Source: Caproicibacterium amylolyticum
Lineage (GTDB): Bacteria; Bacillota; Clostridia; Oscillospirales; Acutalibacteraceae
NCBI RefSeq assembly: GCF_014467055.1
Contig: NZ_CP060696.1
Coordinates: 1,488,001-1,552,000, forward strand
Reading direction: 5' to 3'
DNA: 64,000 nt
Positions 12,934 through 14,855 of the stretch are shown one piece after another (position 1 is the first letter of the stretch; each line of letters opens with the position of its first letter). The position numbers and the translations under genes were made by a program. Under the pieces are notes generated by a model that was given only the letters and a program-made list of their open reading frames with translations, had not been told where the DNA came from and ran no database searches.

Positions 12934-13689
12934 TTATCCTGCGGTTTTCATGTGGAGGCGCAAACGGTCGGAAATCATTGCAATAAATTCGCTGTTTGTA
13001 GGTTTGCCACGGGTATTATGAATCGTGTAGCCAAAGTAGGAATTCAGTATGTCCACATCTCCGCGGTCCCACGCAACCTCAATGGCATGGCGGATTGCAC
13101 GCTCCACTCTGGAAGGTGTTGTGTCATACTTTTTCGCTACACCCGGGTAAAGCTGCTTTGTAACAGCATTAATAATGTCCGGGTCTTCAATCGCCATCAA
13201 AATGGAATCCCGCAAATAATGATACCCTTTGATATGTGCAGGTACTCCGATTTGATGCAGAATTTCTGTTACCTGTACTTCCAGTGTTTCTTGGCAGGGC
13301 ACTGACGGGTTGTCCATAGCCAGTAGCTGGCGGATACGTTTTGCAAGTTGTGCCGTTTCATAAGGCTGCACTGCAAGGTAGCACGCTCCAGAAGAAAGTA
13401 CCTCACGCTCAAGCGTAGGACTTGTAAAGTTGCTTTCCACAACAAACGTGGGAAGTTTCACGGTATGGTGTTCCTGCAAAGCATTCAACACACCAACCGC
13501 GTCAAGCCCCGGCATAAAAATGGGAGCCAGCACTGCATCCGGTCGCTGGGATTCAACTGCTTCCAGCAGACATCCGCCGTCTTTTGCCGTGTAAATAACC
13601 GTAAAGCCGTTCTCTTCAAAGATTTGGTTGTTTTCGCGCTGATATTCCGGGCTGTCGTTCGCAATCATGAGTTTTATAGTGTTCTCCAT
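12934..13689 (-). CDS. spo0A: Spo0A-type sporulation master regulator with degenerate receiver
   Basis: A 251-residue protein with SD AGGGGGA before the ATG. The C-terminal effector domain is intact and strongly conserved: EILHQIGVPAHIKGYHYLRD, VAKKYDTTPSRVERAIRHAI, EVAWDRGD and KPTNSEFIAM. The N-terminal receiver keeps its overall pattern but has lost the phosphorylation chemistry: the phosphoacceptor Asp is Pro56 (DAVLAPIFMPG where the family has VLDIIMP), the conserved Lys is Gln108 (AVQPYE), the switch Thr is Glu85, and the acidic pair is Asn11-Asp12. It lies directly downstream of spoIVB, the conserved spo0A locus, so it is the syntenic spo0A and not an obvious extra paralogue. DNA binding should be retained; activation by phosphorelay probably is not. 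Confidence 0.93.
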   Translation of the reverse strand: MENTIKLMIANDSPEYQRENNQIFEENGFTVIYTAKDGGCLLEAVESQRPDAVLAPIFMPGLDAVGVLNALQEHHTVKLPTFVVESNFTSPTLEREVLSSGACYLAVQPYETAQLAKRIRQLLAMDNPSVPCQETLEVQVTEILHQIGVPAHIKGYHYLRDSILMAIEDPDIINAVTKQLYPGVAKKYDTTPSRVERAIRHAIEVAWDRGDVDILNSYFGYTIHNTRGKPTNSEFIAMISDRLRLHMKTAG

Positions 13690-13717: not shown

Positions 13718-13749
13718 ATTATATTACCATAAACTGGAAAAGATGGCAA
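13718..13749 (-). promoter_or_regulatory. Putative spo0A promoter
   Basis: In the 110-base spoIVB-spo0A gap the minus strand holds TATAAT (13718-13723) about 29 bases before the start codon, with TTGCCA (13744-13749) at a long 20-base spacing. The -10 is convincing and the -35 is doubtful. No Spo0A box (TGTCGAA) was seen. Confidence 0.45.
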
Positions 13750-13799: not shown

Positions 13800-14855
13800 T
13801 TATGCTGCCGCTTTTTGTGCAGTACTTGCTTCACCTGCCAGCATGTGTTCTGCCAGAATTCCGTAACCTCTTGTAGGGTCATTTACAAAGACATGTGTAA
13901 CTGCGCCAACTAGCTTTCCATTTTGCAAAATAGGGCTTCCGCTCATTCCCTGCACGATTCCGCCTGTTTTATTAAGCAGTTGTTTATCTGTAATATGCAG
14001 AATCATATTTTTGCTCTGCGCTGCGCGTGTGTTCAATAGCTCAATTTCCGCACTGAATTTTTGAGGGCCACTGGAATCTATTGTACAGAGAATCTCTACA
14101 GGGCCGGTCTTTACTTGGTCAGATGGGCAAACTGGAATTGCTTCGCCATCCGGGGCGTGGTTCATTTTTCCAAAAACGCCCTGTACGCTGTTTGCATAAA
14201 GCGTTCCACTCGGGATATCAGACGAAAAGTATCCCTGCAGTTCGCCTGGAATGCCCTGAACACCTTTTTGAACACCGGAAATGATGACTGGAACAATATC
14301 ACCGCATCCGAATGGCATGATTTCATTGGTATCGGGATCTGTAATTCCGTGCCCAAGACCTGCAAACATTTCATTGCGCGGGTCATAATAAGTCAGCGTA
14401 CCTACTCCAGCAGCACTGTCACGTACCCACAGTCCGGCACGGTAACATCCTGTGCTTTGCACTGGGGAAAGCTTAGCTGCTACTTTTTGCCCGCTTCTGT
14501 CAATTTCCAAATTTAGAGACCGCCCGCTGCAGTTTAGCACTGCCTTTGAAAGCTGTTCATTACTGGTGACTTGTTGCCCATCTATCGACAGAATTACGTC
14601 GCCTGTACGCACATCTGCTTCCTTCGCCGGATTTACCGTACCCCCACTTGTTTCTAAGTCTGCGGTACCTACCACAACGACTCCGTTGGTGAACAGTTTG
14701 ATGCCAAAGGGCAGGCCGCACGGGATGAGCATCACTGGACTAGACGTGCTGACTGGCTGTACCACAGGCTCCGCTGCACCTGCAGATATTCCGCCCAAAA
14801 ACATCGCTGCTGCCAAAGCCACCGCTGTTTGTTTGAAAATTGAACGATTTTTCAT
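13800..14855 (-). CDS. spoIVB: SpoIVB-type serine peptidase (S55)
   Basis: A 351-residue exported protease. In Bacillus it is made in the forespore and cleaves SpoIVFA to trigger sigma-K activation. It has an N-terminal signal/anchor (KQTAVALAAAMFLGGISAGA), a PDZ domain at about residues 50-115 (ADVRTGDVILSIDGQQV) and an S55 peptidase domain. The latter includes catalytic His in FAGLGHGITDPDTNEIMPF and catalytic Ser in IVQGMSGSPILQNG, followed by AVTHVFVNDPTRGYGI. The SD GAGGAGGTG can pair with an upstream CGCACCTC, possibly limiting translation. It lies upstream of spo0A as in most endospore formers. Confidence 0.93.
   Translation of the reverse strand: MKNRSIFKQTAVALAAAMFLGGISAGAAEPVVQPVSTSSPVMLIPCGLPFGIKLFTNGVVVVGTADLETSGGTVNPAKEADVRTGDVILSIDGQQVTSNEQLSKAVLNCSGRSLNLEIDRSGQKVAAKLSPVQSTGCYRAGLWVRDSAAGVGTLTYYDPRNEMFAGLGHGITDPDTNEIMPFGCGDIVPVIISGVQKGVQGIPGELQGYFSSDIPSGTLYANSVQGVFGKMNHAPDGEAIPVCPSDQVKTGPVEILCTIDSSGPQKFSAEIELLNTRAAQSKNMILHITDKQLLNKTGGIVQGMSGSPILQNGKLVGAVTHVFVNDPTRGYGILAEHMLAGEASTAQKAAA

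Follow-up and report, generated by a model that had tools for sequence, protein, structure and literature searches.

The only canonical Spo0A of Caproicibacterium amylolyticum lacks the phosphoacceptor aspartate of its receiver domain, and the same residue is missing from every Spo0A found in the genus. We analyzed a stretch of 64,000 nucleotides (hereafter, the window) from this genome, a single contig of 2,996,201 bases (G000), and the spo0A locus lies in it as listed in the table. The encoded protein scored 264.3 bits on the equivalog model TIGR02875 (spore_0_A; cut-off 200). Its DNA-binding domain matched the complete Spo0A_C profile (157.6 bits, positions 1-104 of 104) and its receiver gave a weak Response_reg match (37.8 bits; cut-off 30.2). 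Synteny was evident from spoIVB, which, as had been claimed, adjoins the gene. Pro56 aligned with the phosphoacceptor Asp of a solved Spo0A receiver, and the replacements that the original prediction had read at this position, at the conserved Lys (Gln108) and in the acidic pair (Asn11) were all found; as Asp12 is retained, one of the two residues of this pair is still acidic. Conversely, the placement of Glu85 at the switch was off by one: the switch residue is Ser86, the usual letter in the family, which occurs in 96% of 106 relatives keeping both Asp56 and Lys108. The DNA-binding domain, described earlier as almost unchanged, was 56-60% identical to solved Spo0A domains, and those of seven other proteins of the genus were 95-99% identical to it. 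Thus, compared with Spo0A of Bacillus and Clostridia as defined by TIGR02875, the window protein shows the same orthology, domain order, spoIVB synteny and highly conserved DNA-binding domain, but it lacks the phosphoacceptor Asp and the conserved Lys and has one acidic residue replaced.

Features of the spo0A locus, in window positions
Feature	Position	Strand	Basis or detail
spo0A orthologue, 251 aa, ATG start	12934..13689	-	receiver at about residues 4-124; Spo0A_C at residues 140-243
spoIVB, 351 aa, directly upstream of spo0A	13800..14855	-	TIGR02860, 355.8 bits
Codon 56, CCC (Pro), at the phosphoacceptor Asp position	13522..13524	-	alignment with Spo0A
Codon 108, CAG (Gln), at the conserved Lys position	13366..13368	-	alignment
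Codon 86 (Ser), switch Thr/Ser position, kept	13432..13434	-	alignment
Codon 11 (Asn), first acidic-pair position; codon 12 (Asp) kept	13657..13659	-	alignment
Residues 86-104, spanning the switch, alpha4 and the beginning of beta5; conserved in the genus	13378..13434	-	identity comparison
Promoter-like site of spo0A, TTGCCA-17-TAATAT, with TGG before the -10	13721..13749	-	by eye

The loss of Asp56 was confirmed by aligning the Spo0A proteins of close relatives. A canonical Spo0A was detected in ten of the 11 genomes of the genus, the eleventh being only 74% complete; L003 and G306 probably represent the same genome and were counted once. Asp56 was absent from all ten proteins (Pro in six, Trp in four), none of which had an acidic residue anywhere at positions 55-57, and all ten carried Gln108. 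Three of the four Trp56 proteins were identical, so these rows are not independent. Codon 56 was CCC, CCT or CCG for Pro and TGG for Trp. A sequencing error at this codon, which the original prediction had thought unlikely, was rejected on these grounds: with Asp56 missing genus-wide and the codons varied, it is very unlikely. The claim of a receiver without a phosphoacceptor therefore stands and extends to the genus, near which Caproiciproducens is the named kin.

This finding bears on how Spo0A is usually regarded. Phosphorylation of its Asp is described, in a portion of PMC11210211, as the start of sporulation in all endospore formers, and passages of PMC8340488 and PMC11536998 use the presence of spo0A to call genomes spore-forming. 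No natural Spo0A lacking Asp56 was described in the portions of the open-access literature that were searched, a body of work outside which most subscription journals fall. A genus lacking the phosphoacceptor while keeping sporulation genes would demonstrate that the phosphorylation gate is replaceable.

The receiver itself remains under constraint, most strongly at residues 86-104. The ratio of nonsynonymous to synonymous substitution (omega) for the receiver was 0.014-0.108 within the genus (dS being estimable in five of 28 pairs and saturated in most) and 0.040-0.180 in an Asp56-bearing sister group (estimable in eight of 15 pairs). Residues 86-104 were 89-100% identical to those of the window protein in seven of seven genus rows, whereas identity over the whole receiver was 56-88%. 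By these comparisons, the receiver is retained under selection. Modeling the receiver, as had been suggested, gave a regular fold: in the AlphaFold model, the receiver fold was kept, with a mean pLDDT of 86.4, and nine of the first 12 ten-residue blocks averaged above 90. The pTM of 0.56 makes the relative placement of the domains unreliable. Residue 56 ends beta3 (strand 52-56), and helices are predicted at 91-99 and 112-124. Foldseek matched the model to the phosphorylated Spo0A receiver 1qmp (TMt 0.85-0.86).

A receiver fold without the phosphorylatable Asp but with the alpha4-beta5 region kept is also found in the aspartate-less receiver (ALR) regulators RitR, ChxR and HP1043, according to sections of PMC4395418. 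In the window protein, the alpha4-beta5 region is conserved in sequence. ALRs are described there as having adopted constitutive roles or other inputs with the dimer interface largely kept. The DNA-binding ALRs in these sections are mostly of the OmpR/PhoB or LuxR type, whereas the window protein is of the Spo0A type; Spo0A is mentioned twice in them, for Asp-to-Glu mutants and in one reference (PMC4395418).

We lean, by a modest degree of confidence, towards a phosphorylation-independent Spo0A of the ALR type whose receiver is kept as a dimerization module or as a module for a partner or ligand. The Spo0A inherited by this lineage would have been converted to an ALR regulator, leaving no Asp56 to phosphorylate. 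The retained receiver may supply its alpha4-beta5 face for dimerization, a partner or a ligand, and the conserved DNA-binding domain would still drive the sporulation genes kept in the genus. Control would have shifted from phosphoryl transfer to a receiver gate, to the amount of Spo0A, or to both. If the genus sporulates, the Spo0A switch is probably thrown by a route other than Asp phosphorylation. The earlier idea of sporulation without a phosphorelay is kept as the likeliest reading, in which both sporulation itself and whatever controls Spo0A are inferred.

We next consider the evolution of the two positions across the family, for which one row was taken from each of 95 of 135 sampled genera. 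The other 40 were left out, as the first representative either gave no match or was listed without its place; the survey lists were ranked by score, which may have led to too few degenerate receivers being included. Position 56 was Asp in 86 genera, Glu in five, Asn in three and Pro in one, the window genus. Lys108 was kept in 72 of the 95 and was missing from eight of nine Asp56-less genera versus 15 of 86 with Asp56 (Fisher p = 3e-5, a value that ignores relatedness). A tree was then built from 165 Spo0A proteins, with columns 10, 11, 56 and 108 excluded and rows shorter than 235 aa or more than 97% identical to another dropped. This tree was built quickly and leaves 59 of its 162 inner branches open; its sampling leans to kin of the window protein, a search with which supplied 80 loci. 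One clade of 45 rows (support 84) had no Lys108 at all. Lys108 changed seven times on the whole tree, one of these changes being that of the 45-row clade and the others touching single or few rows. Of the 11 Asp56 changes inferred, eight fall in the 45-row clade, which makes up 22% of the tree length (binomial 0.0005, with parsimony counts taken as exact). Asp56 and Lys108 were also compared in an independent-pairs test, which was uninformative (median p 1).

Because most inferred Asp56 losses nest within the Lys108-less clade, Lys108 appears to have been lost first and Asp56 later. Loss of the conserved Lys uncouples phosphorylation from activation in other response regulators. As suggested by the nesting, ancestral loss of Lys108 could likewise have uncoupled the two in this clade, thereby making Asp56 dispensable and allowing its repeated loss. 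A wider account, which we rate as somewhat less likely than not, is that conversion occurred repeatedly within the family: Lys108 would have been lost in the ancestor of the clade and Asp56 several times thereafter (to Pro, Trp, Asn and Glu), while the sporulation programme stayed in place and a ligand, a partner or the Spo0A level, instead of any kinase, became its trigger. The family offers natural intermediates, with Lys108 lost and Asp56 kept, or with Asn, Glu, Pro or Trp at position 56, and these make the freeing of a response regulator from its kinase testable. Separately, seven rumen Ruminococcus-like Spo0A proteins (L041, L044, L049, L059, L061, L065 and L067) formed a group of their own with Glu56 and with Lys108 kept; this Glu56 is a possible natural phosphomimetic form.

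In many Clostridia, orphan histidine kinases phosphorylate Spo0A directly, without a Spo0F/Spo0B phosphorelay, as stated in a part of PMC11210211. The genus shares with that pathway the same master regulator of sporulation; that route needs the Asp, however, and the genus Spo0A is without it. Following the suggestion to look for orphan kinases, the HisKA family alone was surveyed in eight genomes of the family (L173-L180, L269 and L272-L341), with pairing decided from gene position and from BLAST searches that used eight receiver queries. Of 73 HisKA kinases, four of which were matches below the HisKA cut-off (two in G173 and two in G007), 71 lay next to a regulator gene or at one gene's distance from it. 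The paired fractions were 7/8 in G000, 6/6 in G301, 9/9 in G173, 2/2 in G103, 15/15 in G152, 14/15 in G247, 13/13 in G007 and 5/5 in G098. The eighth kinase of the window genome was an unpaired hybrid kinase, and none of the eight genomes showed a simple orphan HisKA kinase like those of clostridial sporulation. No unpaired HisKA kinase was present in G007 or G098 either, both of which have Asp56 and Lys108. Asp56-bearing and Asp56-less species are alike in this pairing, so that a lack of orphan HisKA kinases does not separate the two, and the idea that Asp56 disappeared because orphan kinases had been lost is not supported. The scarcity of orphan HisKA kinases fits a family whose orphan-kinase route was already weak.

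A different reading of the same receiver is that it no longer inhibits the DNA-binding domain, so that Spo0A is constitutive and its amount alone sets its activity. We consider this unlikely, while granting it some weight. In line with this reading, the C-terminal domain of Bacillus subtilis Spo0A is active when isolated, and Glu occupies position 56 in other members of the family. Asp-to-Glu alone is often insufficient for constitutive activity, Spo0A included, as noted in part of PMC4395418. A vegetative-type promoter-like site was recognized by eye just upstream of spo0A in all eight genus genomes aligned (the -35 being TTGCTA in G300), as dose control would have it. A similar promoter, however, precedes spo0A in relatives keeping Asp56 and Lys108 (e.g. 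L033 and L084); the site is therefore no sign by itself of a new mode of control, nor a response to Asp56 loss. In addition, a receiver with no role should not hold residues 86-104 at the identity described above, unless for dimerization alone. Near-palindromic arms, TATTGCCA...TGGTAATA, cover the -35 and -10 of the promoter-like site, and 70 of the family's 148 upstream regions fit a regular expression for this element in fuller form. The dyad might be an operator, yet a promoter with an extended -10 accounts for it equally well. Counting against our preferred reading, no clear 0A boxes were found upstream of spoIIE, spoIIAA or spoIIGA; the 0A-like heptamers there, with one mismatch, occurred in about the number estimated for chance.

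It could also be that constraint on the receiver is relaxed and that Spo0A is a leftover in a genus that no longer sporulates, which we judge quite unlikely. A section of PMC7873966 notes sporulation genes in three related caproate producers but states that no spores were seen; this also counts against our preferred reading, in which a working pathway is presumed. The parts of the open-access genus papers that were looked at contained no statement on spores for the window genus. This reading would also account for the receiver diverging faster than the DNA-binding domain in the genus rows. However, the receiver omega matched the low values of the sister group with Asp56, the DNA-binding domain is nearly identical between species, and sporulation genes occur throughout the genus. 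SpoIVA was detected in 11 of 11 genomes (ten over the cut-off, the other a fragment) and SASP in ten of 11. The window genome has a spoIIA region with sigF (spoIIAA and spoIIAB named by eye), spoIIGA-sigE, a sigH-like factor and sigG. One of the NCBIfam cut-offs is exceeded for sigE and for sigG; sigF (197 of 321), sigH (125 of 295) and spoIIGA (154 of 210) fall below theirs, and such shortfalls in several sporulation proteins weigh against our preferred reading. SpoIIE was also found in 11 of 11 genomes, two of them with matched pieces, but in none over the family cut-off, and the spoIIE of G173 shared no more than 50-51% identity with its G304 and G000 counterparts, both of which would suit a lineage losing sporulation. 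Against this, dN was far below dS for spoIVA (0.066 versus 2.76, one pair) and for spoIIE of G304 and G000 (0.168 versus 1.4). In the two spoIIE pairs with G173, dN was 0.45-0.46 and dS was saturated, as it was for the one sigK pair (dN 0.112). Evidence of selection on the sporulation genes thus rests on few pairs: one each for spoIVA and sigK and three for spoIIE.

The sigK genes provide a further argument for a programme in use. No sigK of the 11 genomes passes TIGR02846 (the best reaching 296.2 of 298.65), and none was seen in G305 when the 11 genomes were searched. The gene is uninterrupted in eight others and split in two species. In the window genome, it is divided by an element of about 10 kb lying outside the window (G000:C1:1461811-1472507; L267), which encodes a large serine recombinase of 606 aa adjacent to the 3' half; its cargo was named by eye as ABC transporter, alpha-glucosidase-like and AraC-type genes. 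In G306 (L268), sigK is split in a similar way, with other cargo and a recombinase of 577 aa. No obvious junction pair of direct repeats was recognized at the element ends among the best 20 of at least 60 repeat families. In known cases, recombinase-bearing sigK elements are excised in sporulating cells. The full-length recombinases in these two elements therefore argue that the programme is used, and against the loss of sporulation.

Phosphorylation of another receiver residue, such as Ser86 or the remaining acidic residue, is very improbable: both residues are kept in the window protein, but Lys108 is lost too, no acidic residue takes the place of Asp56 at positions 55-57, and position 10 is acidic in only six of the 45 clade rows and Asn in 21.

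Finally, the genome does encode a second Spo0A_C protein; a second, intact Spo0A was what the original prediction had named as overturning it. This 261-aa protein (L002:1024-1809; Spo0A_C 77.7 bits) has a receiver that looks intact, with acidic residues and Asp. However, it reached only 91.7 bits on TIGR02875 (cut-off 200), matched the window protein at 28% identity across 95 columns in the DNA-binding domain and occurred in one of the 11 genus genomes. It is thus a distant paralogue that does not explain the genus, and takeover by a second Spo0A with an intact receiver was rejected as barely credible. The L002 protein adjoins a 495-aa sensor named by eye as AgrC-like (L255:4797-6284), which also speaks against a takeover, and the two may form a local two-component pair whose effector is of the Spo0A type. 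In G054, we observed a 114-aa Spo0A_C protein without a receiver (L122:1474-1818). Neither it nor the L002 protein is a general replacement for the genus Spo0A. The G054 gene lies beside one for a 487-aa protein that is SbcC-like by eye and is possibly borne by a mobile element.
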